Assembly (NCBI RefSeq): GCF_000243335.1
Contig: NZ_JH597773.1
Span: forward strand, 2,535,684 to 2,599,683
Direction of reading: 5' to 3'
Source of the DNA: Leptonema illini DSM 21528
GTDB taxonomy: Bacteria; Spirochaetota; Leptospiria; Leptospirales; Leptonemataceae
DNA length: 64,000 bases
The notes beneath the pieces were generated by a model that was given only the letters and a program-made list of their open reading frames with translations, searched no databases and had not been told where the DNA came from. Shown here one piece after another: positions 1,632-29,783 of this stretch. The stretch's first letter is position 1, and every line of letters begins with the position of its first letter. The translations under genes and the position numbers were made by a program.

Positions 1632-2504
1632 TCAATGAGATCTCTGCAACATCTCGCCCATAGCCGACAGAAAATCGGATACGATCGGCGAACGACCCAG
1701 GCCGGCCCAGGAAGCGTGAGATGCGCCTTTCGCAATAATCAAGCGTTTCGGTTCGGCCGCTTCGTCAAAGAGCTCTCTACCGAATGATACGGGCACGGTA
1801 TCGTCAGCATCCCCATGAATAACAAGCAAAGGAAGCGGCGCCAGCAAGCCTAACCTTCCGCTAACGGCATGCCTGTCTGATAGAATCAGATACGGTAAAA
1901 AGAATGCGGGCAGAAGGCAGCCTCTCATCTTAGATGCGCCGATCGAAGAATAAGAGCTGAACGTGCTATCCAGTACGAGCAGATCGGGCTGCCCGTATGA
2001 CGGGTCAGACTTCCAACGAATCAATCCGTTTGCGGCAAGGATGCCTCCGAGACTCTGGCCGTAGACGACGAACTTCATTCCCTTCCGGCGTGCGAAATCA
2101 TCGCCGGCTCGAAGCATCGCCAGAACATCGTCCTGAACGTCGCTGTGAGCAATCTCTCCATCTGATCTGCCAAATCCGCGATAATCAAACATCATCAGGT
2201 CGTAGCCGCGATCCGCCATCCAGGCAACGGAAATGAAGTGGCTGCTGATGTTCTCGGCATTCCCGTGAAAGAACAGCACGAGCGTATTCTTTGACGCTGA
2301 TAGGCCCGTCGCGCCGATATGAAAGCCATGCAGGGACGTTCCGTCCTTTGATTTAATCCAGATATCACGGGATGGAAATCCCATACGATCGGGATTGAAA
2401 TACTCCAGTCTCGTCGGATGATAGAAGAACGTCGTATTACAGCCAGCGAACAGACTAAAAATAATGAGAGTAAGAAACGAAATATTCGCGAGTTTCTTTA
2501 CCAT
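1632..2504 (-). CDS. Alpha/beta hydrolase lipoprotein
   Basis: Serine hydrolase of the YfhR/BEM46-like alpha/beta fold; substrate unknown. Numbered from an upstream Met at 2528, the motifs are the lipobox ending FAGC at Cys30, an oxyanion FFHGNAEN region, nucleophile Ser159 in GQSLGG, acid Asp240 in IHGDADDTVP and His271 in KGASHASW. The start at 2504 (MVKKLANIS) gives the best signal peptide; both starts overlap the end of the upstream DUF4105 gene by about 50-75 nt. A membrane-anchored periplasmic or outer-membrane location is likely. Confidence 0.85.
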   Translation of the reverse strand: MVKKLANISFLTLIIFSLFAGCNTTFFYHPTRLEYFNPDRMGFPSRDIWIKSKDGTSLHGFHIGATGLSASKNTLVLFFHGNAENISSHFISVAWMADRGYDLMMFDYRGFGRSDGEIAHSDVQDDVLAMLRAGDDFARRKGMKFVVYGQSLGGILAANGLIRWKSDPSYGQPDLLVLDSTFSSYSSIGASKMRGCLLPAFFLPYLILSDRHAVSGRLGLLAPLPLLVIHGDADDTVPVSFGRELFDEAAEPKRLIIAKGASHASWAGLGRSPIVSDFLSAMGEMLQRSH

Positions 2505-5106: not shown

Positions 5107-6213
5107 CTACCGCGACACCAGGCGAGCCTGATTTATCAGGTATATGAGAAAAGCCCTGATGCGTGATTCCGGCACGGGCCATTGAAAATAATGGTCATTA
5201 CGAAAAGAGGCATAGGTAATCGTGCCCGGAATATACGCCTCGGAAAGCAGGATAATACCGTCACTTGGCCCCTGGGGAACCATCGCCAGATAAAAAGGGC
5301 GCGCGCGCGTCGTCACATGTCGAAAGAGAGGAACGCCAACTATATTAATCACGGTCATGCCTGATGGAATATCGACAGGCCCGGAAAGCGGGGCATCTTC
5401 GCCATGACGCATGGAACGCAATCCATCCCAGTCATAGCCTTTGCGCCAGAAATAGTAACGCGCTCGCCAGTAAGCGGAGGGGTTGTTCAAAATGTAATCG
5501 ACAAGCCGACTGCCGTTCAGGATGCCTCCCATATTAATCCAACCGCGAACGACGCGAAACCATGGCTGACGACCGCATTCGCGGATCGCCATCTTCATAT
5601 CGGAGCTTCCTTTGCTGGCCGAGGCGATAATCAAACCGCTCACCTTTTTGCTTTTTTGTATATTTTCGACGTATTCACATATGATATGACCGTTTTGCTG
5701 CACAGTACCCGTTTGCTCCGTAGGAATGATCGCTTCGGCCATTCCCAGTTCACGTGCAATGCTGCGCAGGCTCGCGCCTGTGGCATCCACCTCGCCTTTG
5801 TTGTCCTTGTAGAACATTCCCGGTGCGACGGCCAGAAGCAACCCTGCCCCGGACTGAGACCGCTTCTCAGAGTCCCTTCTTTCAATAGCTTTAATTTGAT
5901 TCAAGAACGAGCGATTACGAGGATCGGCAATCAATCGTTGATAAAAAAGGGCGGCCGCCTTATCCACATCCTTCGTGGTCTGAACAATGCCTTTGTAATC
6001 CTCACCTGTCAGGTCGCTAAATTTCAATTCAGGTCGATACCCACGGGCCCAGTCAAGGTATTCCTTTTCATCTTCGCAGAGATTAGGGATTTCGTACTCT
6101 TCGTCGAGGCAGGTTACGGACCGCGGTGGTGTTACTACCGCAGCCTGATCAGAATAACACGCAGCGACAGAAAGGAAAAAAGAAAGAAAAAAAATGAACT
6201 TTTGAGAAAGCAT
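5107..6213 (-). CDS. Alpha/beta-hydrolase-like lipoprotein, function unknown
   Basis: 368 residues with a lipoprotein signal (LSVAAC, Cys19). The middle has GLIIASASKGSSDMKMAI, which resembles a nucleophile-elbow region (G/A-x-S-x-G type), followed by WINMGGILNGSRL and, near the end, GTITYASFRNDHYFQWP, where the His could complete a triad. This suggests a divergent alpha/beta hydrolase, but no family could be named. Codon use is more A/T-rich than its neighbours. It stands alone between two small secreted proteins, divergent from the TRL-like gene. Confidence 0.65.
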   Translation of the reverse strand: MLSQKFIFFLSFFLSVAACYSDQAAVVTPPRSVTCLDEEYEIPNLCEDEKEYLDWARGYRPELKFSDLTGEDYKGIVQTTKDVDKAAALFYQRLIADPRNRSFLNQIKAIERRDSEKRSQSGAGLLLAVAPGMFYKDNKGEVDATGASLRSIARELGMAEAIIPTEQTGTVQQNGHIICEYVENIQKSKKVSGLIIASASKGSSDMKMAIRECGRQPWFRVVRGWINMGGILNGSRLVDYILNNPSAYWRARYYFWRKGYDWDGLRSMRHGEDAPLSGPVDIPSGMTVINIVGVPLFRHVTTRARPFYLAMVPQGPSDGIILLSEAYIPGTITYASFRNDHYFQWPVPESRIRAFLIYLINQARLVSR

Positions 6214-6290
6214 GCAGGATTATTTCTGCAAATCATATTTTCCGGTAAACAGAATTTCGCTTTACAAGTATTGCATGAGATTCACATTAT

Positions 6291-6312
6291 TATAATCAAA
6301 TTTTACAAGGAG
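6291..6312 (+). promoter_or_regulatory. Candidate -10 box and RBS of the TRL-like gene
   Basis: A consensus TATAAT at 6291-6296 is followed by a strong AAGGAG at 6307-6312, 9 nt before the ATG. The -10 lies very close to the RBS, so either the leader is very short or the box is fortuitous. No convincing -35 at 16-18 nt was found. Confidence 0.35.
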
Positions 6313-6321
6313 TTTCCATCT

Positions 6322-6687
6322 ATGATGAAAATCCGATTTGCAATGATGGCTGGAGCCGCAGCCATCGCACTTGCCAGTTGCGCAACTGGCCCGATCGATC
6401 CGCCGCTTGGCTCTGCTGCTATCTACAGCGGAACAAAGGCAAACCTTAACTGCTACGCTGGCGGTGAAGGTGGCTGTGCTGCTGAAAAAGACGGAAAGGT
6501 TGTCGGCACGAAAACAGGCGAGGCCTGCGCTTCAGCTGTTCTCGGTCTGATCCAAACTGGCGACATGAGCCTGAAAGCTGCTGCAGCTGACGGAAAGATC
6601 ACAGAAGTTACCTCTGTTGATTACAGCAACACTCAGGTCCTGGGTTCGATCTATCTTCAGAAATGTCTGATCGTTAACGGTAAGTAA
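6322..6687 (+). CDS. TRL-like family lipoprotein
   Basis: 121 residues. The signal peptide ends ALASCATG (Cys about residue 20). The mature protein fits the TRL-like family: PIDPPLGSAAIYSGTKA, then GTKTGEACASAVLGLIQTGDMSLKAAAADGKIT and a hydrophobic beta end. The start is fixed by AAGGAG upstream; the much longer frame open from 5404 is antisense to the neighbouring gene and is not used. Function unknown; related spirochaetal proteins are small abundant lipoproteins. A hairpin terminator follows. Confidence 0.88.
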   Translation: MMKIRFAMMAGAAAIALASCATGPIDPPLGSAAIYSGTKANLNCYAGGEGGCAAEKDGKVVGTKTGEACASAVLGLIQTGDMSLKAAAADGKITEVTSVDYSNTQVLGSIYLQKCLIVNGK

Positions 6688-6693: not shown

Positions 6694-6726
6694 GGCCACT
6701 ATCTTCACCGGTAGTGGCCGTTATTT
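6694..6726 (+). terminator. Terminator after the TRL-like gene
   Basis: Perfect 8-bp stem GGCCACTA/TAGTGGCC with a 10-nt loop, then GTTATTTC. It begins 7 nt after the TRL-like stop and ends where the leftward barrel gene ends, so it may act in both directions. Confidence 0.75.
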
Positions 6727-7857
6727 CAACTCCACTCTCCATACAATTCCCATCTCGAAGATCTGAAATTCTTCCCTGTAGACGCTGGTTCGCTCGGCAA
6801 GCAGGCGATTCAACATGAACCGCTCCAGATGAAAGACGCTTGTGCCCGTCCAGGCGGCACGCACTCCCTGACCATAGATACTCGTAGTGCCTGCCATATA
6901 TTGAAACCGTAGCAGCCATGCGCGGGAAAGGGCGTAATCAAATCCAATCCCTATACGATGTCCGTCAGTGCGGACAGGCCCGAGCTCAGAATAGAACTCC
7001 ATCTGTCCATTCGCATAGAACGTTTTACGTTCACTTTCCCATCTGCCATACGGAGAGTACTGATAGAGATACCGTGCCTGCAGTCCGATGCGAGTGCCCT
7101 CAAAGCGATACTCAAGCCCGACAAGACGCCCGGTGTGCAAGACATCGATGCGATCGTCGCTGCTCAAACCAGTTATCCCCTGGCTGATGCGCGCCCGATC
7201 AAGATGTGTATAAGCGCCCGTAAGATCATATCCGATAAGCAAAAAGAGAGAGGCCGACGTCAAGTGCGATGAATCGAAAAACGGATTGTAGCCGCCAACA
7301 AGCTGGCTGTTCCATCGTGAGTGACGCGCCTGAACGGCTTCACTTACGGCATTGATCACCCGACTCTGCCCTATGAGGCCTTTGTGATGCGAAACGGATC
7401 TCATTGTCTGACCATCAAGGGTGACAAGCCACGGGCCTTTCCTATACTGGATGGCCACTTTGAAAGATGCGGCGTTTGCAATGTGGTCTTCGTGAAGACC
7501 AGTCGGAGCGTGAATCAGCAATCCATCCAATCTATCGCCGTAAAGACGGTCCTCAACTCCGCTCTGATAGATGCCACCGCCTGCACCAGCAAACACCTGA
7601 AATTCTTCAACCGGATTCGATTCTGCAAGCAATTGCCCGCAACAAGCAAGAAACGGGAGAGCTGTGATCAGATACCGCTTGAGGCCGAAGCGGGGCCGCA
7701 GAAACCAGAGCGGATTAGATTTGATCGACAGGCTCCGAAAAACAGGCACAAATTCCCTTTTTTCTGCACCCTGAGTCTGGAAAATGTTTGACCGGCGACG
7801 ATTTTTGAATATTCTGACTGTAGCATTCAGCGCCGCAGGTGCTAATGTTTTTCGCAT
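6721..7857 (-). CDS. Probable outer-membrane beta-barrel protein
   Basis: About 378 residues. Alternating amphipathic strands with aromatic girdles run through the protein (for example TGLEYRFEGTRIGLQARYLYQYSP and AWLLRFQYMAGTTSIYGQG), ending in WRVELK, as expected of a small barrel. The only ATG with a good Shine-Dalgarno (AAGGAAG) is at 7857, but this puts a ~60-residue basic segment before the hydrophobic stretch LKRYLITALPFLACCGQLLAE, which looks like the real signal peptide. An internal non-ATG start is possible. It follows the giant lipoprotein gene by about 70 nt on the same strand. Confidence 0.7.
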   Translation of the reverse strand: MRKTLAPAALNATVRIFKNRRRSNIFQTQGAEKREFVPVFRSLSIKSNPLWFLRPRFGLKRYLITALPFLACCGQLLAESNPVEEFQVFAGAGGGIYQSGVEDRLYGDRLDGLLIHAPTGLHEDHIANAASFKVAIQYRKGPWLVTLDGQTMRSVSHHKGLIGQSRVINAVSEAVQARHSRWNSQLVGGYNPFFDSSHLTSASLFLLIGYDLTGAYTHLDRARISQGITGLSSDDRIDVLHTGRLVGLEYRFEGTRIGLQARYLYQYSPYGRWESERKTFYANGQMEFYSELGPVRTDGHRIGIGFDYALSRAWLLRFQYMAGTTSIYGQGVRAAWTGTSVFHLERFMLNRLLAERTSVYREEFQIFEMGIVWRVELK

Positions 7858-7871
7858 GAACACTCTTCCTT

Positions 7872-7900
7872 CCCCCGGTTCCCCCCCGGGGGTTTTTTTT
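7872..7900. other. C/G-rich inverted repeat with T8 tract
   Basis: CCCCCGG then TT then a C7G5 run, followed by eight T on the plus strand. As a plus-strand RNA it looks like an intrinsic terminator, but no rightward gene precedes it. On the minus strand it lies in the ~70-nt spacer between the giant lipoprotein gene and the barrel gene, as G-rich RNA just before the barrel RBS. Confidence 0.45.
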
Positions 7901-7927
7901 GCCCTTTTGACCTGGTCGGCATTACCT

Positions 7928-10900
7928 TCATCGTCCGCTTTTCTCTGAGAGCACGGGCTGTTCGATAAAGGCGGACGTAGCCGGTTTCAAGAACAGGTAT
8001 TCAGCACCCTCTCCTTCCTGTATCTGCTGACGGGCGTAATCAAAGCGCTGACGGGCCGAATTCGAAGGCAGGTCGGCTTTAATATATGCCCTGACAAAGC
8101 CGGGTACAAAGCCCAGGCTACCGGCGGGCATACGACCGATGACTCCAGAACCGTGTTGCAATACGCCTGGAGCGACGCCAAAGCCATAGAGAAGAGGCTG
8201 CCGACGTCCTGGAGTTAAATCTTGAACGGGTCGGCTCATCTCTTCATAGATAACCCAGACGCCGGCTCCAGAAACGGGCTCCCATCCTTCTTGCACAAGA
8301 ACGGTACCCGTCCTCTGACGATTCATGCGTTCAAGCTCGAGGTTGGTCCAGTCGACAAGCTGCTTTATTGTGCGGCGGTACAACTCATTCAACGGGTGGG
8401 CCGTCTGCTGCGTCTTCAGTCTGACCCTGAAGTCAGGTCGGAATCGACCATCATTACGTGTCGAATCAAGTAGCGATTCCGGATCGATGATCTGAACCTC
8501 GCTTCCCGACAGAGAAAGCGGAGCAAGAGCATGCACTCCTGTTAACCATCGATAATGCATTTTTTCGCCGGCAACGGGCAGCATGGCATCGTATTCGCCG
8601 GCAAGCGCAACCGCCGATTCGCGCCCCTGCGAATTCTGAAAGAACTCAAGCAGTCGACTTCGCAGCGAAACGGAGGTACCGGGCAGAGTCGTCATCGTGA
8701 TCCCGTCGGACGTTATACGCAACAGCCGGAAGACCGTTCCGCTATCATGAAGAACGGTCAGTTGTTGTTCGGACGGGATCCGTCTTATCAGCTCTTTTGC
8801 AACGGGCGGTATTTTCCAGTCTCTTCCCTGTTGCATCCTTTTCTGGGCGATCAGAAGATCAAAAAGAAGCTCCGCATCGCCGGCCTTCACCGCTTTCTCT
8901 TCAAGAAGATACAAACCCAGAAGCGAGTCCTCCGCAGAAAAGGCGGGTCTCTTAAGCGCATCTCTCATCGCCGGAAGCACGCTACTGTTAAGAGGCGACG
9001 CTACGACGGGGGCAACGCTGTTGAAAAGAGCCGCTCCGTACTCGGTCTGCATCGCATATTCCAGCTGCTTTTCCGGCGTTTTCCATCCAAGAGCAGTTAA
9101 CCAGAGAGTCGTAAACGCCTGCGTTTCTGCCAGGGAGGCCGGCACAGGACGCCCACCGGAAAGGGATGCATGCAGGTTTAAGAACTCTGCGGCAAGCGCA
9201 GGGCGGCGATCCAGCAGATACGCCTTTGCCGCAAGCAGCGCAAAAAGCGACGCTCGCCGCGTCGAATGCACCTTCGCTCCATCGATCATCTGGTGCAGGA
9301 TCGTTTTTACCTGATCATTGCCGTCGAAGGGGATGGAGTCCAGAGCCATACGCAGCTGAAGCAGCTGCTCGGTCTGCGATAGAAGCGAACAGGCCGATTC
9401 TCTATCGGACGTCTTATCGCGAAAAGGAACGAAATCCAACAACCTGGACGTATTCGGCGGTCCCTGAAGGCAGGTGAGGCTATCAAGGCCGGTGCGACCT
9501 TCTTCCATGCGCTGACGCATCTGTCGCAACAGAAGCCTTCTCTGTTCGAAAAGCGAGCGGCCGACGGAACCGGCCGTTCCATTCAGAAGATCTTCGACGT
9601 ATTTCCAGCGCCCCCTGTAAGCGCTGAGGATCAGATTGAGATCGGTGTCTTTTTCGGTAAGGTTCGACTTTTCAATCAGGGCTATGGCTTCATCGATACC
9701 TTCGCCTCGCAGAAGGGCCGATTCAAGAGCGATACGAGGGCGTAATCCGCTTTCGCGCTCGCCCTTCGTGATAAGAGAGCCGGCCAGATCGAAGCTTCCG
9801 TGTCGGTAGAGCAGTTGCACGCCCGCCTCGACGAGGCTGCGATCATTCTGAAATAGATCATACAGCTCGGCAGGCGTATTCACGACGCGTCCCGACGGTT
9901 CGGCCTGGTTGAGCCCGTTCAGATATTCAAGAACGACCTTCTCGGATTGCTTTCTCTCGCGCTGTTCGGGGAATTCTCGCAGACTCTCTTCATACACTTC
10001 AAGCGCCTTCTGATATCGACCGACTGTGGCAAGTCCGCCGATATAGGATCGGTAAAGGGCATACCGCTCCAGACGCTGTTTTTCAGCGGCAAGCAGCTCT
10101 TTGAAAAAAGTCTCGCCTTCGTCCGGTCGAACGAGGATTAAAGATCGAGCCAGATACACCCTGTTCTTCGCCCCGATCGATTGCTCTTCGGGTAACCCCT
10201 CAAGCAGGCTGTCTGCCAGTTCAAACTCCCGTAAAGCGGTCCTGCGATCGTCCTTCACAGAAGCCAGCCCGCGTCTCATTGCTTCACGATGGCTGGCCGT
10301 AAGATACTCCTGCAAGGCGGACCTTTCAAAGCCCTGCGTACCGAAGGCCAGCGAATCCTCTTTACCGAACAGGGACGGATCTGCGGGCGGATTCTTCCCG
10401 TGAATCAGGAAGATGCCGCCGCCGGTCGACCTGAATACCTCATAGCTGAAGATCATGCCCGCCCACCAGCGACGGAAGGCTTCACTGTCCTCTTCTGCAG
10501 TCGGAAGCAGTCCGTCGGATCCCGATGCGATCAGCGCAAAAGCGGCACGGCGATCCCGCGAGATCCAGTCCGCCGCCGAGAAAACCCTTCCCGAACGGCG
10601 CGCAAAAAAATGTGAAGCGGGCACATCGTCGATTCGAAGCACGTTATCATGGGCGGCCGGGCCTGTTGAGCGAATATTAAAGAACCGATACCCCTTCGCA
10701 ATATCGGACGCGCTTCGAATCATAACACTTGAGGAGTCGCTCATCGTCGTACGCAGGACGCGCTCCGGTCCGACGCGCTGTAGTGCGGCGGTCAGCATTC
10801 CGTTTGTAGCGCTGCGCCAGTCGGCAATTATCACTGTCGGAGCAACGGCCAGGCCACAAGAATCGACGTCAGACGATGCGGCCGCTATGCGCCCGAACAC

Positions 10901-13900
10901 ACGGATGCAATATCGGGACGATGGGGTGGAGAATAACCTCACGTACTGCTGTCGATCTTGCGACGACGGCAGGGCCGGCGGGCTTGCAACGATGAAATCC
11001 CGGAGCGACGGCTCAGAAAGAAGCATCTCCTTCTGCATGGCGTCAAGGCGCTTCCTTTCTTCCTGCCTCATTCTAACGACTTCGGTCGGATTTCGCCGCT
11101 GAAGCCGGAGTCGGGTTTCTTCGGCCAGCAGGCTACGCAGTTTCGAGCGGCTCTGTCTCAGAATGCGATGAATCTCGACGGAATCCCGCCGCGAAAAGTC
11201 GAGCGGATAACGATAAAATTCGATCTGCAATCCGTACAGGCGAGCCTGCTCCAGAAAGACGAGCGCCCTTTGCGGTCGCCCCAATCGAATCTCAAGCTCC
11301 GCCATTCGCTCAAAAAGCGGATGAATTCGTTCGGCAACGAGCGGCAGTATAAACGGAAACTCAACAAGCAGGGCATTCGCACTATTCAGATGTCGCAGGG
11401 CTTCGTCAAAGCGGCCGTCCATTGCGGCGACGTCGCCGCGAATTCTGAAATACTCGAATCGCTCGGGAATCGCGTGAAACTCGAACGTTTCCTCTTGAAT
11501 ACGCTCCAGCAACGGTTCGAAGTTCGTGCGATCTCCCTTTTCAATGAGCACCCTTGCCAGGTTTAACCGCGTTCGAATTCCGGCAAGCGTCGGGGCGCCC
11601 GCGTCTGCGGACGAGGCCTGATCCAGCCTTTCTTCGGCTATGAGCAGCATATTGCGATCGTCGGGTTTTCCCGCTCGCTTCATCTGCCGATGAAGATAAA
11701 AAGCCAGCAGACCTTCGATGGCCGAGAAATCCGATAGATCTCGCACCATCATCTTTTCCAGTACCGGATCATCGTGGCTTTCGGTGTATTCAAAATCGGG
11801 ATCTTCGGTTTCCCGCTGTCGAATGTAGGCGGATTTCAGGGCTTCCCGGTAACTCTGCCGAAAGGCGACGAGATCTTTCAGAGCCGATTGCATTCTACCG
11901 TTCAGAGCTGGATCGCCGTCCGTCGCTTCAAACTGCTGAAAGAGAACGATATACGAATTGCGAAAGTTACGGCGAAACGAATCGAGCATGCCGGCCGACA
12001 GAGCGGCATCGGACGCCGATCGATAATCCTCGAAGGCTTTATCATATTCTCTTTGATTCAGAGCGATCTCGGCCCTCTGGTTGAATGCATAGATCTGCCC
12101 TTCACTGCCGAGACGAACATCGCCATCCTGCTTGCTGAATACTTCGATACGGCGGGCAAGGATTTCCACCGCTCGATCTAGGTCGCCCTGACGCATGAAG
12201 TTGCGAAATCGAATTCCAAGCGAAAGCTCGAACTGTCGCAGCGGAGAGAATCCATACGGAGTACGTCCGTCGCCGATTACCGAAAAGTCTTCGCCGTATC
12301 CGAGCAGAAGGCCGAAGATGCGCCCGCCCACCGTCTGAGGTTGAAAGCGATCATCGTTGCGCGTTAACCCCTGCCTTTTCGAAGATTCTTCGGCCTCGCG
12401 AGCGGCGAGATCGGATCGATCGAAATCTTCAAGATCCTGAAAGGCGAGAGCTATATAGTTTTCGAGGCCGGCTCTATCCATTCCCTGAGCGGGAAACGGC
12501 TCACGACCATACAGGATCTGCAATGCATCAGAATAGGCCTGTATCGCCTCGCGGGCATTGCCGCCATCCTGATGAGCCAGTCCGCGAAGCGATTGGGCGA
12601 AGGCGAGCCTGTAACGGCTCTGAACGAGTTCTGCCTGTTTTCTCTCGCTTCTCGCTTTCAGGTATGCGTTATCAGGCTCAGAGAGCGATTTGTATCCGGC
12701 GCGATTGGCCGCTTCAAATTTCGGCCAGTAGTCGGATTGTCGCAGCTTATCGACGGCGAAGTCGAAGTCTCTGGCCGCAGACTCCGCCTGCCCCGAATAA
12801 AAGCGAGCACGGCCTCGATTGATATGAAACAGGATTCTCTGCATATCGTCTTCAAAGATAGCCGTTCTGCTGCGGGTGGAAAGCTTCTCGGCGCGATCAT
12901 ACGCCTCGGTTGCAGCCCTGTAATTCACAAGCTGAAAGTGGTTGTTACCGAGGTTTAACTGTAGAAGTGCCAGATCACGCTCACGTCCTCCGGTCTGCCT
13001 GACGCTCTGGTTGATCTTCTGGTTGATCTCTTCTATCGCGGCATTCAACATGTCGACGTTCTTCTCATAATAACGTCCGTTAAAGGTATTCTGGTATTCC
13101 GCCCGATAGAAAATACCGTCACGAACGCTGCTCGGTCGAACGCCCGTCAGAAAAATAAAGGCTCTGTCGATATAGCCCGGCTCAAGCAATATCTCGGATT
13201 GTTTGCGGCTATCTATGTACTGATAGAGCCAGGAAAGAAGCAGTGTCGCATCGACAAAACCCGGATCGACGTTCAGAATATAGAGAAGTCTGTATTCTGC
13301 CTGCTTTAAATCATCGAGGATAGCCTTCTTGCGCTCCGTCATCACAGCGGAGGGAATCTGCACTCCCTGTTTCAACAGAGAATCGTAGAACCGCTCCCGT
13401 TCTTCGGTTTTTCTTATCAGAAGATAGGCATGACCGTAAAGCAGAGAATGATCGAAATAACGACGACCGTCCTGCTCGGCAAAGTTATAGCCGAACAGGA
13501 TTTCGTTAAATATCTGAGCGTCAAACGGATCTTTCTCAAGAAAGAGCGATTGCACGGTATCACGACTGATGATCCGGCTGCGCTTTTCTTCCCATGTGAG
13601 ATTTCGCTTCAATCGCTCAATGGCAAGGTCGGTTTTCCAGCGATGATAATGCACGGACCACGTCTCATGCAATTCGTCGAAAAGCCCGGCCGTTCTGAAC
13701 TGCAAAAAGAGAATGTTAACCAGCGTCGCATTCGCATAGCTGACAAGATAGAATAGCTGACTGACTTCATGTCCCTCTTCAAGGGATATAGACGCCGCCT
13801 TGCCCTGCAAAAAAGGAGAGACGGAGCGACAGATCTTTGCGTAACGCTCGATATAGTCTTTATAACCGAGGTTGTTGATAAGCAATCCCGCCGCAGAATC

Positions 13901-16066
13901 CGAGGCGCAAAACTGAACGAGCATATTCCGGTCGACCATATCGAGCTGGATTCTCTCGCTGCCGACGGCCGTCTGTATCTCGCCGATCAAGAAAAAACGG
14001 TAGTCCAGTCGATCCTCGACGTCTTCGGCTATGGATTGCGCCGAGCGACGATACTGTTCGATATAAGAACGCGAAGCATCGATCAAACGAAGAAAGTCGG
14101 CCTCATCGACGTCAAGATTCCAATCTCGGTTATACGATTTCAAGAAACGCAGACGCGCATCCAGAGCAAGCTGCTGATTCTGCTCGATGTCATAAATGGC
14201 GGCAAGTAGCTTCCATCCGATAGTATATGCCACATTGCCGTCGCCGGTGAACTTCAAACCCTCCTGAATGCGGGACCGGGCATCATGATATCGCCTTGCG
14301 CGAAACAGCCTCTCTCCCTGCAATATATAATAAAGCCCTCGCAGAATCGGCTGAGACTCGTTCGTCGGATCAGGAATCATGTCTTCAGCGTTCCGGTTAA
14401 TCTCTTCGTAAACGACCTGAATAATACGCTGTCGCAGCGCCTGCTCCGTTTCAGGAGCTGAGAGCAATGAGCGAAAGCGATCCGGGACGCGACCGTTCAT
14501 GCGAATCTGCAGAGCGGCCTCGGTCAGCAGCGTATTATTGCGATTGATATAGCCCGGATCCTCGGCGTTCAGTTGCTGCACGGTGGAAAGAGCGACGGCG
14601 ATCATCCCGGTCCGAATTCTTGCCTGTACGAGACGCTCTCGCAAATAAGAAACGGCAAGCCGATGTCGAACTGGGTCGAGATCGGAAAGCCTTTTTGATC
14701 GAAGCGCAAGCTCGATAGCAGCGGCCGTTCCCGGACGAGCGATTCGAGCCGCTTCGCTGAAGGCATTCTGCTGCTCGGCCTTTCGAAGCTGCTCCGTGTA
14801 TCGGCTGCGATCCCCGCCGTCGGTAGATCCGCGCAAAAGATCGGTGAGCACGTCATATTCTACGAGAATGAATTCAGGCGATTCCGAGAAATACTGGATA
14901 ACGCTCTCCAGTGCAAGTTGCCGTCGGTCGCCCGAAAAAGTCTGCGCGAATTCATATTGGTCGAGGGCGTTTTTCTTGCGCGGAATCAGTCCATCGGGAC
15001 GCGAAAGAAAGATTCGCGATCGGCCGGCGTCGTTATCATAACCGGCATACAATATACCGCCGCCAAGATACGGCGATAGCGCGATATTGTAAACGGGCAT
15101 TGTGCTGTCGGTTACGTGCCGTACCGATCCGCTTTTCAGGGACATGCGATGCACAGCGCCACGATCGTTCAGATCAAGCCGACCATCGCCGTTCGTATCT
15201 TCGTCGATGGCAAGGAAAAGCAGCTCTTTTTCGTCCTGGGCGAGAATGGGCCTCAGCGCCATCCCTCCATTTCTGTAAACGATGCGCTGGCTTTTACCCG
15301 ATTCGAGAGAGATCAACAGGAAGCCTTCGGGTAACCCTCGGTCATCAAGAGCCGTAGCGGCAATGGTGCGAGCAGTTGCAGAAGGCTGGATTGCTCTTTC
15401 CGTAGAAAGAAGTACCGGCTTTCCTTCAGGGCGACCGCTTTCGTTCAGCTTCAGGCTCCACAGTCTGAAAACTGTTCGCTGACAGCGATCACTGGCATAG
15501 AATAGAGTTCTGCGATCGGCCGAGAAAACCGGATCAAGCTCGCCGGCATCGCCCGCACATCCGTCGCGGCTTTCGCTGAATTGCTCTGAGATATAATCCG
15601 AAACGCTGAAAGAAGAGGCGCTGTGATTCGGGATGGCGTTTCCACGCATCACATCGTATGCGATGCGCTCCGGGTTGATCTTCGTTAAAAGAATATCGCC
15701 AGAGGCGTCACGATCATAGCTCACATAGGCAAGATGCTGTCCGTCCTGACTGATCGCCGGGGAATTCTGAACCGCCTCCTGTTCCACAACGGGGACGTTA
15801 ACCGTAGTTCGAAGCTGCCTCATCCAGATATCGGGAGAGCCCTGAACGTCCGACACATAAAATAAATAGCCTGCAGCCGATACCGAGGGATCGGTGTTCA
15901 TTCCTCTTTGAATGATGATGGGAAAATGTCCGCCCGGATTCTTTTTAAAGAACGTATCAAGCAGATTCGGATAATCAAACGCCGGCGGCTCGGTGATCTT
16001 CGCCGAGGCGCAGGAAGAGAAAAGAGCCGAAACCAGAAAAAACAGGATTCCTTTATTGAGAGACAT
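7928..16066 (-). CDS. Giant lipoprotein with TolB/PD40-like propeller and TPR-like repeats (~2,710 aa)
   Basis: Lipoprotein signal FSSC near residues 17-20. Residues ~55-370 hold PD40/TolB-type blades: NSPAISQDGQHLAYVSYD, DPVFSADRRTLFYASDR, later LAQDEKELLFLAIDED and an EF-like DTNGDGRLDLND loop. From ~450 to ~1550 helical repeats look TPR-like (LALLQLNLGNNHFQLVNYRAATEAYDRAEKL; REYDKAFEDYRSASDAAL). A beta-rich stretch around 1,640-1,850 (AAFALIASGSDGLLP) faintly recalls CHAT-type domains but lacks a recognisable His/Cys pair, and TPR-like helices resume after it. GTG precedes ATG; ATG at 16066 is chosen because of the upstream AAGG. Likely anchored in the outer or inner membrane as a scaffold. 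Seven to ten nt separate it from the upstream lipoprotein gene, implying one operon. Confidence 0.8.
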   Translation of the reverse strand: MSLNKGILFFLVSALFSSCASAKITEPPAFDYPNLLDTFFKKNPGGHFPIIIQRGMNTDPSVSAAGYLFYVSDVQGSPDIWMRQLRTTVNVPVVEQEAVQNSPAISQDGQHLAYVSYDRDASGDILLTKINPERIAYDVMRGNAIPNHSASSFSVSDYISEQFSESRDGCAGDAGELDPVFSADRRTLFYASDRCQRTVFRLWSLKLNESGRPEGKPVLLSTERAIQPSATARTIAATALDDRGLPEGFLLISLESGKSQRIVYRNGGMALRPILAQDEKELLFLAIDEDTNGDGRLDLNDRGAVHRMSLKSGSVRHVTDSTMPVYNIALSPYLGGGILYAGYDNDAGRSRIFLSRPDGLIPRKKNALDQYEFAQTFSGDRRQLALESVIQYFSESPEFILVEYDVLTDLLRGSTDGGDRSRYTEQLRKAEQQNAFSEAARIARPGTAAAIELALRSKRLSDLDPVRHRLAVSYLRERLVQARIRTGMIAVALSTVQQLNAEDPGYINRNNTLLTEAALQIRMNGRVPDRFRSLLSAPETEQALRQRIIQVVYEEINRNAEDMIPDPTNESQPILRGLYYILQGERLFRARRYHDARSRIQEGLKFTGDGNVAYTIGWKLLAAIYDIEQNQQLALDARLRFLKSYNRDWNLDVDEADFLRLIDASRSYIEQYRRSAQSIAEDVEDRLDYRFFLIGEIQTAVGSERIQLDMVDRNMLVQFCASDSAAGLLINNLGYKDYIERYAKICRSVSPFLQGKAASISLEEGHEVSQLFYLVSYANATLVNILFLQFRTAGLFDELHETWSVHYHRWKTDLAIERLKRNLTWEEKRSRIISRDTVQSLFLEKDPFDAQIFNEILFGYNFAEQDGRRYFDHSLLYGHAYLLIRKTEERERFYDSLLKQGVQIPSAVMTERKKAILDDLKQAEYRLLYILNVDPGFVDATLLLSWLYQYIDSRKQSEILLEPGYIDRAFIFLTGVRPSSVRDGIFYRAEYQNTFNGRYYEKNVDMLNAAIEEINQKINQSVRQTGGRERDLALLQLNLGNNHFQLVNYRAATEAYDRAEKLSTRSRTAIFEDDMQRILFHINRGRARFYSGQAESAARDFDFAVDKLRQSDYWPKFEAANRAGYKSLSEPDNAYLKARSERKQAELVQSRYRLAFAQSLRGLAHQDGGNAREAIQAYSDALQILYGREPFPAQGMDRAGLENYIALAFQDLEDFDRSDLAAREAEESSKRQGLTRNDDRFQPQTVGGRIFGLLLGYGEDFSVIGDGRTPYGFSPLRQFELSLGIRFRNFMRQGDLDRAVEILARRIEVFSKQDGDVRLGSEGQIYAFNQRAEIALNQREYDKAFEDYRSASDAALSAGMLDSFRRNFRNSYIVLFQQFEATDGDPALNGRMQSALKDLVAFRQSYREALKSAYIRQRETEDPDFEYTESHDDPVLEKMMVRDLSDFSAIEGLLAFYLHRQMKRAGKPDDRNMLLIAEERLDQASSADAGAPTLAGIRTRLNLARVLIEKGDRTNFEPLLERIQEETFEFHAIPERFEYFRIRGDVAAMDGRFDEALRHLNSANALLVEFPFILPLVAERIHPLFERMAELEIRLGRPQRALVFLEQARLYGLQIEFYRYPLDFSRRDSVEIHRILRQSRSKLRSLLAEETRLRLQRRNPTEVVRMRQEERKRLDAMQKEMLLSEPSLRDFIVASPPALPSSQDRQQYVRLFSTPSSRYCIRVFGRIAAASSDVDSCGLAVAPTVIIADWRSATNGMLTAALQRVGPERVLRTTMSDSSSVMIRSASDIAKGYRFFNIRSTGPAAHDNVLRIDDVPASHFFARRSGRVFSAADWISRDRRAAFALIASGSDGLLPTAEEDSEAFRRWWAGMIFSYEVFRSTGGGIFLIHGKNPPADPSLFGKEDSLAFGTQGFERSALQEYLTASHREAMRRGLASVKDDRRTALREFELADSLLEGLPEEQSIGAKNRVYLARSLILVRPDEGETFFKELLAAEKQRLERYALYRSYIGGLATVGRYQKALEVYEESLREFPEQRERKQSEKVVLEYLNGLNQAEPSGRVVNTPAELYDLFQNDRSLVEAGVQLLYRHGSFDLAGSLITKGERESGLRPRIALESALLRGEGIDEAIALIEKSNLTEKDTDLNLILSAYRGRWKYVEDLLNGTAGSVGRSLFEQRRLLLRQMRQRMEEGRTGLDSLTCLQGPPNTSRLLDFVPFRDKTSDRESACSLLSQTEQLLQLRMALDSIPFDGNDQVKTILHQMIDGAKVHSTRRASLFALLAAKAYLLDRRPALAAEFLNLHASLSGGRPVPASLAETQAFTTLWLTALGWKTPEKQLEYAMQTEYGAALFNSVAPVVASPLNSSVLPAMRDALKRPAFSAEDSLLGLYLLEEKAVKAGDAELLFDLLIAQKRMQQGRDWKIPPVAKELIRRIPSEQQLTVLHDSGTVFRLLRITSDGITMTTLPGTSVSLRSRLLEFFQNSQGRESAVALAGEYDAMLPVAGEKMHYRWLTGVHALAPLSLSGSEVQIIDPESLLDSTRNDGRFRPDFRVRLKTQQTAHPLNELYRRTIKQLVDWTNLELERMNRQRTGTVLVQEGWEPVSGAGVWVIYEEMSRPVQDLTPGRRQPLLYGFGVAPGVLQHGSGVIGRMPAGSLGFVPGFVRAYIKADLPSNSARQRFDYARQQIQEGEGAEYLFLKPATSAFIEQPVLSEKSGR

Positions 16067-16076
16067 CACGACCGCC

Positions 16077-16724
16077 TTATAGAGAAGCCTTCTTCACGAT
16101 GCGTCCGCTTTCGTCGCGCACCCATTCGTTACGACCGGCGGCAAGAAAGAAGGAATGCCTGAAATCCTCGGCCTGGGTCTCGTTATTCTCAAGATAGTAT
16201 TTATAGATCTGCTTTCGCGCCCGATTTACTTCGGCGACGATGGCCTGCAGTCGAATCCTTTCTTCTCCATTCAGTCGTCGTCCAGCATCCTTTTCAGGAA
16301 CGAAGAAGACTTCTCCGTCCCGTCCCTCCCCGAGGAATTCCAGATAACGATATCGCAGCAGAATATCGTCGTAAAGAACAAGCATTCGGTATTCTGCGCG
16401 AACGTTCTCGGGCAGATGACTGACGGCCGAGGGCTGAGGCGGCAGATAGCTGGACGACGAAATCAACCACCCGTCTGGCAGCAGTTCTTTCTCTTCGCCG
16501 ATCAGCTGACGCTCGGCGGCCGTACGCTCAGGTGTCAGCGTTATCGGCGGCACGTCGACCTTTACGATCGCACATCGGTTGGCGACGTCTGCAAGCGGGT
16601 TCTCTTTAGGATCTGTTAACCTCTGATAGATCGTGCACTGGAGTAAAGACAGGCAGAGAATGATAGGAACATGCATCCGTGAGGCGCAGAATTGCAAGAA
16701 ATTAAGGATTGGTCTGTTTTTCAT
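16077..16724 (-). CDS. Hypothetical lipoprotein
   Basis: 215 residues. The hydrophobic segment VPIILCLSLLQC is a lipoprotein signal of the relaxed spirochaetal type (Gln before Cys30); a second in-frame Met at residue 17 would give a more normal signal length. The rest is charged and helical with no recognised domain. The start overlaps the AsmA-like stop by 4 nt (ATGA) and its stop lies 10 nt before the giant lipoprotein start, so translation of all three is probably coupled. Confidence 0.7.
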   Translation of the reverse strand: MKNRPILNFLQFCASRMHVPIILCLSLLQCTIYQRLTDPKENPLADVANRCAIVKVDVPPITLTPERTAAERQLIGEEKELLPDGWLISSSSYLPPQPSAVSHLPENVRAEYRMLVLYDDILLRYRYLEFLGEGRDGEVFFVPEKDAGRRLNGEERIRLQAIVAEVNRARKQIYKYYLENNETQAEDFRHSFFLAAGRNEWVRDESGRIVKKASL

Positions 16725-19700
16725 TGGAATTCTCCTGTTTCCTTACGGGTTCGTTCGAGGAACTCGGCCAGCGGGATTCTCTCCTGCCGGATCATCTCGT
16801 CGGCGGGCTTGACGAGCCTGGAGAACGATACGATTCCGGAACTGCGTACCTGTATCGTCGTATAGACAAGTCCGCCGCGAAGCTCTGCCGACATCGCCGG
16901 TATTTCGAGGGTGTTATTCACAAGCTTTGCCAGAATATCGGACGGCACCATGATACGCACGGCAAGACCTGTGAAGTCCTTGCTGATACGATAGACGGCA
17001 AGGCGAGCGTTTATGTTGCGAACGGCGTCGGCAAGGTTCGCACCTCGCACGTTAGCCGTCGCGCTGATAATGCCGTCATAAGAAGAATCGGCCTTTGGAA
17101 AGTACGGTTCGACGTTCAGGTCATGAACGGACAGATGAGCGCCATACTCCATAGAGGCCGGCTTCATATCGGCAACGTTAAAGAACAGATTCCGCAGTTC
17201 GATCGTTCCGTTTGAAACGTAGCCCGTACCGGAAGCCGTTCTGTACACGGGCGCCATCGTCTTCTCGCCCGCTTTCAAGGGTCTGTAGGTGCTGATACGA
17301 AGCAGGCGGCCTTCCAGAATATTGCGTTTGTATGTAAGGTTCGCCTCAAGCGCCGGTCGGGCCCCGCCGGCCGGCGCTCCGAGGAAGTAGAAGCCCTGAT
17401 CGACGACAAGGCCGTCAGGGCTCCGGTTTGACCATACCGATTTCAGGGTTAGATTCGGCCGATCGGGAAATCGATCGATGAGATCGGGATTGATCATCGT
17501 TTCATAACGAACGGGGATCATCTGATTTCGATGCACGAACGGAAGCGTGAAATTCAAATCTTCAATATTGTAGTATGTGCAACCCGCAGTCTTCTGCACA
17601 CAGGCCGTATTGCTGTAGATCAGGTTGAATCGTCGGATGTCGATATTGCCCGCAATCTGTTCCGGTCGGATCTGCGCGCTGATATCGACCGTTCCGTCAA
17701 GCCGGACGTTTTCATGCACGGGCAGCATTCCCTTTCGCGAAAGATTAAGGCGAAAGTCCAGATAGGGCTGCCTTGCTCCAGGCGGGCCGGTTAATGATCC
17801 CGTCAGATCGGCGTTAAGCGCTCCACGAAGTCCGTGCAGGTGAATTCGGCGAAAGCGAACGCCGTCCGGCGCCGTACTCATGTCGGCCTGTAGATTCAAT
17901 CCTTCTGCGCTGATTGACGGAAGAAGAAGGGCGGCGCTCGCCTGTATCACACCGCTCCCCTTTTCCATGTGTATCTGCGCGTTTCCGTCAAGGTGCGCTC
18001 CTTTTTCAAGATACGGTCGGATCACTTCCAGATCAGATCGCAGATTTCCTGGAAGCAGCGGATGCAATTTTTCATAGTCCACGTCAAGGCCCGACAGCCT
18101 TACCGTATAACTCTGGCCCCCGGCGAAAGTCAGCTCGCCTGCCGCGAGAAGCCGCAGCAATGACGCCCCCTTCATACTCGTTCCGGTCAGATCCGCTTTT
18201 CTGATGTCAAGACGCACTCCTCGCCCGGGGAAGACAAGGTCAAGATCGGTATTGAGCGCCACGTTCTGCACGCCGGACAGCGATCGATCGATCAGATAAC
18301 GCGCAGCATCAAGGCGCACCAGCCCGAGTACGGTGATGCGACTGAAATCTGTACCCGAGCGAGCGCGCAAACTTGCCGATCCCGTCGCCGTCAGATGCGG
18401 AGCCGTGAATTGACCGAGCGCAAAATTCTTGAGATCGAGATCAAGCACGATGCCCTGATCGGGATGCAGAGATCCCTTTCCACTCAGTGAGGCGCCGTTG
18501 TACCCGAGTTCGAGGCGATCGATGTAGGCTTCGCGAACGACTCCATATGCGAGGCTGTGATCGGCCGAGTAGCCTTCGGGGACTGGAAGCAGGCCGAGCG
18601 CATAAAGATCAACCGTTCCGCGCACGTCGATCTGCGCCGTCGGAACGCCGTGCACCGACTTTCCGGTACGCACGCGCACGTTACTGCCGCTTAACCCGAA
18701 GTGAGCGCTCAGTCGATCCAGACGACCGGTGATCAAAAGCGGATAAAGAGAAAGTCGTCCGCCTGTTTCGACGGCGTTATTGGTTAACCTCTGTATAAAA
18801 GGTCCGATGCGGTCGAGATCGATGCTCGACTCCTGCATGCGCACTTCCATGTGATGAAAGCCGCTTTCATCACGGCGAAAGTCCCCCGTAAGAGAAAGCC
18901 ACGTATCAGGCCCCGATTCAAGCCTGAATCTGCGAATCAGAAACCTCTCCTTCGCGGGATCGTACTGAATATCATGCTCCAGCCGCAATCCGAAGGGAAT
19001 ATCCATACCCGATCGTCTATGCGACAGATCACGCGCATCGATGCGCAGCCGTGAAAGAAAGGCCGTACCGTTTTCGAGCGTTTCACGATACAGCTTGAGC
19101 ATTAACGTCGGTCTTCCCTGAACGCTGTCGAACTCAGAATACTCAAACTGCACGGGACGGATCGGATTGAGGGCGAAGAACAACGAATCGAAAAGCTGTA
19201 GAGAATCGAGGTTAAGCGGAATGGTGTGAAAGGTCTTCGTCACAAAGCCGAGGTGCAGATCGACGTCCGAAAGATCCACCCGCCGCAGCCTCTCGCCTGA
19301 ATGGTCTTCAAGCAGAAAACGAAGCCCCTCGATGCGCACCGCGCCGTAAAGGCGCACAGGCAGATAGAGCTCGATCTCCGGCGGCCGCGGCGAAGATTCC
19401 TTCGACTTCTCGGTCTTCTTGCGTGGCCGATCGGATTTCAATGCATCGCTGTTCCAACGATCGTTGCGCTTGATCAAAGATACGGTAGGATTGCGCAGCC
19501 CGATCTCACGCACGCCGATCTGCCCGGCAAGGAAACCCGGCAGGAACCATTTCAGGCGCACCTGATCGGCGGCAAAGATAGAATCACCCGAGAGGCGGTC
19601 TTTCAAAACGACATCGTCAAAAACAAAGCCGAAGAAAAGAGAGCTGCTGCGCACATGTACCTTCAGCTCCGTCGACGCGGGCATCGCCGCGCTCAATATG

Positions 19701-19819
19701 GAAGAGACGACCGGCGCAGAAAAGAGGATCTGATATGCGAGAATCAGGACGAATACGACCGATATCCAGATTTTCAATCGCAGCGGCAAAGATCGAATTT
19801 TTCGTTGAAGGTCAGACAT
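16721..19819 (-). CDS. AsmA-like/DUF748-type envelope protein
   Basis: 1,032 residues with one N-terminal membrane segment (about 15-35: LRLKIWISVVFVLILAYQIL), then a long, almost all-beta periplasmic part. The start resembles AsmA-family proteins: SVVSSILSAAMP-like helix, a strand pattern VRSSSLFFGFVFDDVVL, FAADQVRLKW, and IGLRNPTVSLIKRNDRWN, the typical NPTV/W motif. The end NINARLAVYRISKDFTGLAVRIM resembles the AsmA C-terminal region. AsmA proteins (TamB, YhdP, YdbH) are thought to bridge the two membranes and pass lipids. Its ATG overlaps the MFS stop by 8 nt. Confidence 0.85.
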   Translation of the reverse strand: MSDLQRKIRSLPLRLKIWISVVFVLILAYQILFSAPVVSSILSAAMPASTELKVHVRSSSLFFGFVFDDVVLKDRLSGDSIFAADQVRLKWFLPGFLAGQIGVREIGLRNPTVSLIKRNDRWNSDALKSDRPRKKTEKSKESSPRPPEIELYLPVRLYGAVRIEGLRFLLEDHSGERLRRVDLSDVDLHLGFVTKTFHTIPLNLDSLQLFDSLFFALNPIRPVQFEYSEFDSVQGRPTLMLKLYRETLENGTAFLSRLRIDARDLSHRRSGMDIPFGLRLEHDIQYDPAKERFLIRRFRLESGPDTWLSLTGDFRRDESGFHHMEVRMQESSIDLDRIGPFIQRLTNNAVETGGRLSLYPLLITGRLDRLSAHFGLSGSNVRVRTGKSVHGVPTAQIDVRGTVDLYALGLLPVPEGYSADHSLAYGVVREAYIDRLELGYNGASLSGKGSLHPDQGIVLDLDLKNFALGQFTAPHLTATGSASLRARSGTDFSRITVLGLVRLDAARYLIDRSLSGVQNVALNTDLDLVFPGRGVRLDIRKADLTGTSMKGASLLRLLAAGELTFAGGQSYTVRLSGLDVDYEKLHPLLPGNLRSDLEVIRPYLEKGAHLDGNAQIHMEKGSGVIQASAALLLPSISAEGLNLQADMSTAPDGVRFRRIHLHGLRGALNADLTGSLTGPPGARQPYLDFRLNLSRKGMLPVHENVRLDGTVDISAQIRPEQIAGNIDIRRFNLIYSNTACVQKTAGCTYYNIEDLNFTLPFVHRNQMIPVRYETMINPDLIDRFPDRPNLTLKSVWSNRSPDGLVVDQGFYFLGAPAGGARPALEANLTYKRNILEGRLLRISTYRPLKAGEKTMAPVYRTASGTGYVSNGTIELRNLFFNVADMKPASMEYGAHLSVHDLNVEPYFPKADSSYDGIISATANVRGANLADAVRNINARLAVYRISKDFTGLAVRIMVPSDILAKLVNNTLEIPAMSAELRGGLVYTTIQVRSSGIVSFSRLVKPADEMIRQERIPLAEFLERTRKETGEFQ

Positions 19820-21101
19820 GAGCCGAATCCTCTTTTTTCATGCTGCGAGCGGGAAGCGATAAAAAAAGAAAAGAAAAAAACACGGCCAGATGCAGCAGAA
19901 GAGAAACGAAGAAGATACCGGCAAATCCGTGGTCGCTTTTTAACAGCAGGCCGGTCAGCAGATTGCCGATCGTCGCCCCGGCCGAGACGCTGACAACCAT
20001 GTAGATGCCCATGCCCGTGCCATAAAGATGCTCGGGAAAGTTACGCCGCAGCAGATAGACCGTGCCCATATAGTATCCTGTGAAATGTATGCCATGCAAA
20101 AGTTGCTGAAATAATATGAGGCCGGGAAGTCCGATCACCGCATCCAGGCCAAGAATAAGAAACCTGATCGCGCCGCTCATCACGGCAAGCAAGAAGAGAA
20201 AACGAACGCCGCGTCGACCGGCGATTCGATCGGCAAGGATCATCAGCGGAATCTCGACAAGAACGGCCAGTCCCCATCCGCCATAGACGTAAGACATGCC
20301 GCCGGCCTGACGTAAGTAACCGCCGAGATAATAGTCCACAACCTGATATGAGAAGTAGAACACGAACGATACGATAAAAAACGGTAAGAATCCTTCTTTC
20401 TTCAGAGCCGAAAAGGCATCGCGAAAGAAATACTCCGTATGCGAACGGCGGCGCTCCGGAACAAGATACGCGAACAGGGCCGTAACAAGCATGAATACCG
20501 AGCCCCACTGCCCTCCACGCCCGCCCTGTATCTCGGGCGCCGCATCGCTCAGCGCAAACATCTCGAGTAAAAGCATGCCGATCTGAATACAGAAAAATCC
20601 AAACGTGCCCGCCGAACGACTGACGCTGAAACCGCGAAAGCTCAGACTTTCCAGTGCGGCTATCGTCAGCAGCTGCGTATTCGCCGCGAAGAAGAACCGC
20701 GTCACCGCCGCCGAAACGATGCATCCCATAAGAGGTAAATCGGGCGAAAAAAGATGATACTGGAAGGGCGTCTGAAGCAGTAAGAAGGCGATGAGCGCCG
20801 AACGAATGCGTCGCGTTTTATCAGAGAACCATCCGGCGAAGAAGTATCCGAAAGGATACAACAGCTGCCCGGTAAAGAAAACATAACGCGCATCATCGCC
20901 GAAGCGATACAGCATATGCGGGCTGAGCGTCGTGAAATAAGAGCCATGCCCCAGGAAGAAGAAGAAATAAACGAGCGAGGCGGCGACAAGCGGACGAATC
21001 TCAGGCCATGGCGCAGAAAACAACGAGGCAAAGGGACCTATGCCTTTCTGCCGACTGTATGCGTTCCCGCCTGTATTTTTTGACTTTACAGTCAATCTCA
21101 T
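19812..21101 (-). CDS. MFS transporter (LacY/nucleoside-like branch)
   Basis: About 12 membrane segments. The segment after helix 2 has the MFS loop GWFSDKTRRIRSAL, and helix 7-8 the loop ILADRIAGRRGVRFLF. The sequence PPEIRPLVAASLVYFFFFLGHGSYFTTLSPHM-type opening is like MFS_1_like members. Substrate unknown. Several starts are possible; the Met at 21101 (MRLTVKSKN) is used because the longer frame runs into the divergent gene's start. It is the first gene of a leftward five-gene envelope block, so a lipid, sugar or other envelope precursor is a reasonable guess, but only that. Confidence 0.8.
   Translation of the reverse strand: MRLTVKSKNTGGNAYSRQKGIGPFASLFSAPWPEIRPLVAASLVYFFFFLGHGSYFTTLSPHMLYRFGDDARYVFFTGQLLYPFGYFFAGWFSDKTRRIRSALIAFLLLQTPFQYHLFSPDLPLMGCIVSAAVTRFFFAANTQLLTIAALESLSFRGFSVSRSAGTFGFFCIQIGMLLLEMFALSDAAPEIQGGRGGQWGSVFMLVTALFAYLVPERRRSHTEYFFRDAFSALKKEGFLPFFIVSFVFYFSYQVVDYYLGGYLRQAGGMSYVYGGWGLAVLVEIPLMILADRIAGRRGVRFLFLLAVMSGAIRFLILGLDAVIGLPGLILFQQLLHGIHFTGYYMGTVYLLRRNFPEHLYGTGMGIYMVVSVSAGATIGNLLTGLLLKSDHGFAGIFFVSLLLHLAVFFSFLFLSLPARSMKKEDSAHV
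21080..21095. promoter_or_regulatory. Perfect inverted repeat TTGACT-N4-AGTCAA
   Basis: A 6-4-6 perfect palindrome between the divergent MFS and nitronate monooxygenase starts. It falls inside the MFS frame if translation begins at 21101, and 59 bp before the monooxygenase ATG. It could be an operator for a dimeric regulator; no regulator can be assigned. Confidence 0.35.
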
Positions 21102-27293: not shown

Positions 27294-27295
27294 TC

Positions 27296-28561: not shown

Positions 28562-28585
28562 GGAATCTCCCTCCTCATTAAGAGC

Positions 28586-28618: not shown

Positions 28619-28656
28619 AGACGGTTTTTGGAGCAAAGCCCCTGTATATGCTCTAC

Positions 28657-29778: not shown

Positions 29779-29783
29779 GAGAA

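Follow-up and report, generated by a model that had tools for sequence, protein, structure and literature searches.

A 64,000-nucleotide stretch of Leptonema illini DSM 21528 (contig NZ_JH597773.1, positions 2,535,684 to 2,599,683 of the forward strand; hereafter the window) holds three adjacent genes, encoding an AsmA-like bridge protein, a small lipoprotein with a DUF1318 domain and a giant lipoprotein, whose products probably assemble into a single complex that crosses the envelope and transfers lipid, most likely phospholipid, between the two membranes. More tentatively, we suggest that this trio represents a distinct class of intermembrane lipid conduit in Spirochaetota and some Zixiibacteriota, in which the bridge docks on the DUF1318 lipoprotein and on an outer-membrane lipoprotein of 2,500-2,700 residues whose propeller, tetratricopeptide repeat (TPR) solenoid and two dead separase/CHAT domains serve as the receiving platform, and that in Leptospira and many other spirochaetes it could be a main route by which phospholipid reaches the outer membrane. 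Phospholipid delivery to the outer membrane has recently been tied to AsmA-like proteins in Escherichia coli (PMC8593681), and the trio is a candidate for this task with named partners.

Conservation and linkage of the three genes

Gene order was compared across the window's family and other spirochaetes. The AsmA-like protein has matches in 44 of 61 genomes, its own included, and 40 stretches of at most 20 kb were taken from 36 of the 43 matching relatives (G025, G037, G042, G044, G045, G046 and G047 were left out). Annotation began with single-sequence searches and continued with profiles for bridge, lipoprotein and giant. Within the window's family, 19 of the 22 genomes carry the bridge gene, and the three without it (G004, G009 and G019) are 76-78% complete. 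The lipoprotein gene lies directly after the bridge gene in all 19, on the basis of partial or profile matches in G005, G007 and G008, and the giant gene comes next in 17, the contig ending in G007 and G008. These three genes form the core of the block and are contiguous in further spirochaete families too. In the window, the bridge and lipoprotein genes overlap by 4 nt, and the gap from the lipoprotein gene to the giant gene is 7-10 nt, depending on the start codon chosen. Among relatives (22 loci listed), the corresponding distances are -128 to 56 nt and -139 to 3 nt, measured from the longest open frame of each gene, which overstates the overlaps. Because short gaps recur among relatives, the arrangement is more than chance.

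The trio also occurs well beyond the family of the window. With the lipoprotein profile as query, 38 loci were found on named genome contigs, chiefly in Leptospirales but also in other Spirochaetota and on one Zixiibacteriota contig. A survey of 392 Spirochaetota genomes with profile thresholds of 1e-10 (AsmA-like), 1e-20 (giant) and 1e-6 (lipoprotein) found the AsmA-like gene in 115, the giant (N-terminal profile) in 109 and the lipoprotein in 105; all three were present in 103 of the 117 genomes that had any. The first find in Zixiibacteriota was a 213 kb contig with all three genes in order. At 1e-20 the giant was detected in 5 of 132 Zixiibacteriota genomes, and bridge, lipoprotein and giant are contiguous in all five (the bridge gene runs off the contig in L155), which argues against contamination as the explanation of the first match in that phylum. 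When the genes of 52 neighbourhood stretches were clustered, 50 stretches contained the bridge, 43 the lipoprotein and 31, plus the five from Zixiibacteriota, the giant; generic signalling-domain (18), major facilitator superfamily (MFS; 10) and NMO (8) clusters came next. As the stretches had been picked around trio genes, only the comparison among neighbours is informative.

Some genomes carry additional copies. In f2 genomes (L048/L058, L049/L051, L055/L059 and L067/L093), the bridge-lipoprotein pair or the lipoprotein gene is duplicated, and the giant gene stands beside one copy only. The giant-less copy at L051 adjoins a signalling gene of kinase/SpoIIE type, and a gene of similar size is found in L055.

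The AsmA-like bridge protein

The window bridge is a member of the NCBIfam family LIC_11026 (NF047499; 1.8e-117, 393.6 bits, cut-off 325), which bears no functional name and whose partner genes lie elsewhere in Leptospira-type genomes. Its place in the AsmA clan is established through its relatives: the window protein alone matches DUF748 at 0.0018, below the cut-off, whereas among 38 members of the bridge family DUF748 was found in 22 (best 5.1e-11), AsmA in 12 (2.4e-8) and TamB in one (7.1e-5). An AlphaFold2 model built from the 38 sequences (mean predicted local distance difference test score (pLDDT) 85, predicted template-modelling score 0.63) comprises a membrane helix at about residues 13-32, within a hydropathy peak at residues 10-39, followed by about 50 strands that form a long groove, and the C-terminal stretch (about residues 867-1028) turns up again as a conserved match of its own. 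Across the 44 strands of at least eight residues, the hydrophobic/polar alternation is 2.40, compared with 1.55 +/- 0.17 when the same strands are shuffled (maximum of 2000 shuffles, 2.13). Strands with one hydrophobic face are what a lipid groove would require. Three Foldseek matches reached E 0.001 or better, namely the bridge-like lipid-transfer protein LPD-3, LptDEM and apolipoprotein B.

TPR and propeller domains, which the giant possesses, typify assembly factors (BamB and BamD, for example), and it is conceivable that the bridge aids the insertion of outer-membrane proteins, with the giant TPR lipoprotein replacing TamA as its partner. TamB, an AsmA-superfamily protein, has a role in outer-membrane protein assembly (PMC12977461), and in the TamL-TamB pair of Bacteroidota the partner TamL is itself a lipoprotein (PMC12045153); the trio resembles TamA-TamB and TamL-TamB in joining an AsmA-superfamily protein across the envelope to an outer-membrane partner, and the single TamB match in the bridge family points the same way. 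We nevertheless consider such an assembly role quite improbable, as no gene for TamA or another Omp85 protein was noticed next to the trio, the fold of the outer-membrane partner differs, and the bridge is far below the cut-off of the TamB equivalog model (14.3 bits against 825) in a genome with no TamB-family match (PF04357 included). A search for other AsmA-type genes in this genome found none, a weak negative given that the window gene, too, escaped the Pfam AsmA model.

The DUF1318 lipoprotein and the comparison with YdbH-YnbE-YdbL

The small lipoprotein has a lipobox, LLQC (read by eye), followed in its 27-sequence family by a conserved motif, PPITLT..TAAERQ.IGE, at about residues 58-77. 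Its C-terminal domain (about residues 121-212) is a DUF1318 domain of the YdbL type (PF07027), which 21 of the 27 members match (best 4e-13), the window protein itself scoring 0.0077, below the cut-off. Alignment of the family with E. coli YdbL by hhalign gave 9e-8 over 85 columns, and the protein is the sole DUF1318 match in its own genome.

In E. coli, ydbH, ynbE and ydbL stand together, with ydbL after ydbH and ynbE. YdbH is an AsmA-like, proposed phospholipid transporter that works with the outer-membrane lipoprotein YnbE (PMC11784454, PMC12977461, PMC8593681). The spirochaete trio is similar in that an AsmA-superfamily bridge gene adjoins lipoprotein and DUF1318 genes, and even the 4-nt overlap of the bridge and lipoprotein genes is common to both loci. 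In contrast to the E. coli locus, lipoprotein and DUF1318 are fused in one protein in the trio, which also adds a giant lipoprotein that the ydbH locus lacks. That a bridge and a DUF1318 protein are encoded side by side in such distant bacteria, with bridges of no detectable similarity, is the best pointer to function, and it connects DUF1318, a poorly understood family, with bridge proteins far beyond Proteobacteria. Both the AsmA-like bridge superfamily and DUF1318 were already known. The initial annotation of this DNA had suggested a system not described in this form; no published description, and no paper naming such a bridge for Leptospirales, was found in the open-licence literature, and as far as these searches show, neither a combination of the two with a giant pseudo-separase lipoprotein nor its spread and synteny has been described, although the system is not the single five-gene block that had been envisaged.

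A lipid conduit is not the only role that a bridge gene followed directly by two lipoprotein genes could suggest. GspN, an AsmA-like beta-taco protein, is required for lipoproteins to reach the surface in Acinetobacter (PMC12802150), and by this precedent the groove might shield lipoprotein acyl chains on their way to the surface, with the giant as cargo or surface adaptor. The trio shares with GspN the fold and the involvement of lipoproteins; the lipoprotein-giant pairing persists without a bridge gene at L092 and L093, and the giants have paired cysteine columns in their N-terminal half (171/196 and 721/747, each in 15 of 34), which would fit an exported protein. We regard this main rival as unlikely. 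GspN acts with the type II secretion system, of which no genes were noticed among the scanned neighbours of the trio, and the window bridge matched the T2SS_GspN_Lepto model no better than chance (E 0.11; 11.9 bits, cut-off 50). In addition, the link between DUF1318 and YdbL leads to the YdbH system, and the presence of LptD beside some trios leads to lipid.

The giant lipoprotein

The giant family combines a lipobox cysteine (31 of 34 giants in the alignment), a propeller (PD40 in 15 of 18 members) and TPRs. Of the annotations initially given to the genes, the MFS transporter, the AsmA-like protein (through its relatives), the lipoprotein, and the propeller and TPRs of the giant hold, the barrel retains a weak DUF2490 match only (2.9e-4, below the cut-off), and the CHAT/separase fold at the C-terminus of the giant had been missed. 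A Pfam scan of five giants found CHAT in the Zixiibacteriota protein of L130 (two stretches, 8.6e-49) and in that of L110 from Spirochaetia (3.4e-5, 23.9 bits, cut-off 24); the same scan of an 18-member alignment that included the window protein gave no CHAT match, and a PDB sequence search with the giant returned nothing at E 0.1. A model of residues 1600-2713 built from 24 sequences (mean pLDDT 77) contains two alpha/beta domains around a helical solenoid. The second of these matches Craspase TPR-CHAT (Z 17.6 over 276 residues, root-mean-square deviation (rmsd) 3.8) and human separase (Z 17.6 over 307 residues, rmsd 4.4). An hhalign comparison of the 18-member alignment with the L130 giant aligned the N-terminal half only, and the CHAT link of the window protein therefore rests on the multiple alignment and the model. 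This gives a fold to the C-terminal part of a family of giant lipoproteins present in 82 to 109 of the 392 spirochaete genomes, depending on whether weak matches in the f14 genomes are left out or counted.

Like TPR-CHAT (Csx29/Craspase) and separase, the giant thus joins helical repeats to a CHAT/separase fold; unlike them, it is a lipoprotein with a propeller, and its catalytic Cys and His are not conserved. Across the C-terminal region of the 34 giants, every Cys and His column stays below 40%, in a loose alignment from which a shifted residue could escape, and inspection of L130 by eye found that neither CHAT domain retains what we take to be the usual Cys. The separase/CHAT fold thus seems to have been kept and the protease site lost, and a pseudo-separase in an envelope complex would, if true, be a new use of the separase fold. 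That the giant is instead an active, caspase-like CHAT protease or an envelope stress sensor, with its operon partnership with the bridge incidental, could be read from the match to Craspase and separase, and also from the top Foldseek hit of the C-terminal model, the transmembrane anti-sigma factor DdvA (7.4e-7), which ranks ahead of separase. We judge it highly improbable, as the giant remains linked to bridge and lipoprotein in both phyla; an active CHAT protease in particular was rejected for want of conserved Cys and His columns. Searches of the open-licence literature for DdvA and for LIC_11026, the latter with further guessed locus tags, yielded nothing of use.

A proposed mechanism and the evidence against it

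If the three proteins act together, the N-terminal helix of the bridge would anchor it in the inner membrane, and the groove of one-sidedly hydrophobic strands would span the periplasm, as the model and the sequence suggest. At the C-terminal end of the bridge, contact with the outer membrane may be made by the DUF1318 lipoprotein, in which the tasks of YnbE and YdbL would then be united. The giant may be a non-catalytic scaffold, anchored in the outer membrane, and may position the bridge end or act as its gate. The cargo would most likely be phospholipid, and it may travel towards the outer membrane. Where an MFS protein is encoded, we can speculate that it is an inner-membrane helper specific to certain lineages, possibly one that handles lipid or lysolipid.

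Several observations weigh against this proposal. The Fisher tests for co-occurrence are below 1e-80, but their P-values take no account of shared descent; seven genomes hold an AsmA-like match alone; and the giant matches of the f14 genomes (27 of the 109 with a giant) are weak, at 1e-27 to 1e-37, and perhaps reflect the propeller alone, so that without these 27 genomes all three genes are found in 77 of the remaining 365. Bridge-lipoprotein pairs without an adjacent giant gene occur at L051, L055, L058, L062 and L091, as do the bridge-less lipoprotein-giant pairs at L092 and L093; because some pairs stand without the third gene, the trio is not an obligate unit. For the bridge, the amphipathic strands are a feature shared with outer-membrane barrels, the three Foldseek matches have query TM-scores of 0.10-0.13, and VIA-align placed ushers and outer-membrane barrels at the head of its PDB matches (Z at most 11.9, with rmsd 15.8). 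AsmA-family structures were missing from that list, an absence that excludes nothing. Orthology by sequence was rejected both for YdbH (hhalign probability 0.6% with the bridge) and for YnbE, of which the signal peptide alone aligns with the small lipoprotein.

The Leptospira-type families likewise count against the proposal, for they mostly keep all three genes but have them dispersed; on a single contig of G032, the AsmA-like gene lies at 2.22 Mb, the lipoprotein gene at 1.29 Mb and the giant gene at 1.95 Mb. Scattering of the genes in close relatives, which the initial annotation had named as evidence against a joint system, is absent from the window's family and present, for the three core genes, in the Leptospira-type families. 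A profile search gave no lipoprotein match in the Leptospira-type genomes G039, G041 and G047. Loss of the lipoprotein and giant from Leptospiraceae was considered and rejected, as profile searches located both elsewhere in the genomes. In these families, in place of the lipoprotein and giant genes, the bridge gene is followed, in some beyond a GalT-like gene, by a gene for a conserved protein of about 505 residues (for example, L050:8504-10027 and L066:10973-12490) that has no convincing Pfam match and no signal peptide by eye. Dispersal of this kind, together with the unstable linkage of the MFS and barrel genes, is what would be expected if the genes were ordinary neighbours without joint function; with contiguity in two phyla and all three genes in most genomes that hold any of them, we find this hardly credible.

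Gene layout and neighbouring genes

The five genes of the window stand head to tail, all on the minus strand, in the order MFS, AsmA-like, small lipoprotein, giant and barrel (Table 1), and their order and spacings are as initially annotated. The MFS and AsmA-like genes overlap by 8 nt, and the giant-barrel gap is 64-70 nt, varying with the start codon chosen. Promoter and terminator scans rose little above the shuffled background (14 against 10.0 +/- 2.8 and 29 against 20.0 +/- 4.2), and no convincing minus-strand terminator came up in the giant-barrel interval. Within this interval, at window 7872-7892, lies an inverted repeat that is rich in GC and has a plus-strand T-run; it would stop plus-strand transcripts, although no obvious plus-strand gene ends there.

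Table 1. Coordinates in the window of the five genes and of the domains of the giant lipoprotein
Feature	Position	Strand	Remarks
MFS_1_like transporter gene	19812 to 21101, or to 21155 with alternative ATG start	-	Pfam MFS_1_like 2e-20
AsmA-like bridge gene	16721..19819	-	product 1032 aa
Small lipoprotein gene	16077..16724	-	product 215 aa
Giant lipoprotein gene	7928..16069 (GTG start), or to 16066 (alternative ATG)	-	product 2713 aa
TolB/PD40-type beta-propeller of the giant	14975..15922, about residues 50-365	-	PD40 1.2e-10 (window protein)
First alpha/beta domain of the giant, CHAT-like	10310..10972, about residues 1700-1920	-	CHAT match of Zixiibacteriota homolog, and model; weaker than second
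Second CHAT/separase-fold domain of the giant	7955..8782, about residues 2430-2705	-	fold matches Z 17.6; catalytic Cys/His not conserved
Barrel gene	6721 to 7857 or 7863	-	weak DUF2490 match only

The two outer genes do not share the stability of the core. An MFS gene lies directly upstream of the bridge gene in 11 of the 19 family genomes that have the bridge; it is absent there in six (G003, G005, G008, G010, G011 and G018), and G012 and G015 end at a contig edge. The MFS gene is thus an accessory that only some genera of the family have attached. The barrel gene stands beside the trio in the window alone, with no counterpart at any other locus examined. Barrel homologs were found in 7 of the 61 genomes, the own genome included, and in the trio-bearing relatives G001, G006, G013 and G016 they sit on other contigs. 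The barrel was therefore rejected as a fifth member of the unit. Of the trans-envelope system proposed in the initial annotation, the inner-membrane-anchored bridge, the lipoproteins and a gene order kept in close relatives are supported, and the five-gene unit is not.

In the window, the next gene upstream of the MFS gene is divergent and of nitronate-monooxygenase-like type (Pfam NMO 4e-48). In G020 (L047:12478-19901), the bridge and MFS genes are broken over several frames, and the NMO-MFS pair is duplicated upstream. A gene for a DUF374 acyltransferase overlaps the MFS gene by 4 nt on its upstream side in L033. LptD is encoded by the next long gene upstream of the bridge in L130, L156 and L157 of Zixiibacteriota and not in L154, with a contig end in L155. 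A small gene precedes the bridge gene in five f2 stretches, and its L055 copy encodes a STAS domain; the Pfam scan behind these assignments covered the open reading frame in the DUF374 position of L033 and the STAS gene of L055, with L031, L034 and the other f2 loci left out. A gene of Lnb_N/DUF7843/DUF7840 type also lies near the trio in the window (2455-4449, minus strand, 2.3 kb past the barrel) and in a distant spirochaete (L142:4818-6752, plus strand, upstream of the bridge), which may be chance. The DUF374, LptD, STAS and Lnb_N-type neighbours, each in few genomes, hint at lipid or lipoprotein metabolism.

Just past the barrel gene, and convergent with it, the C-terminal part of a longer open frame (window 5404-6687, plus strand) ends in a predicted lipoprotein frame of about 120 residues with a clear lipobox. 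A nitrous-oxide-reductase cluster, comprising a NosZ-type propeller, NosL, NosD and ABC transporter genes, occupies positions 25772-31718 on the minus strand of the window.

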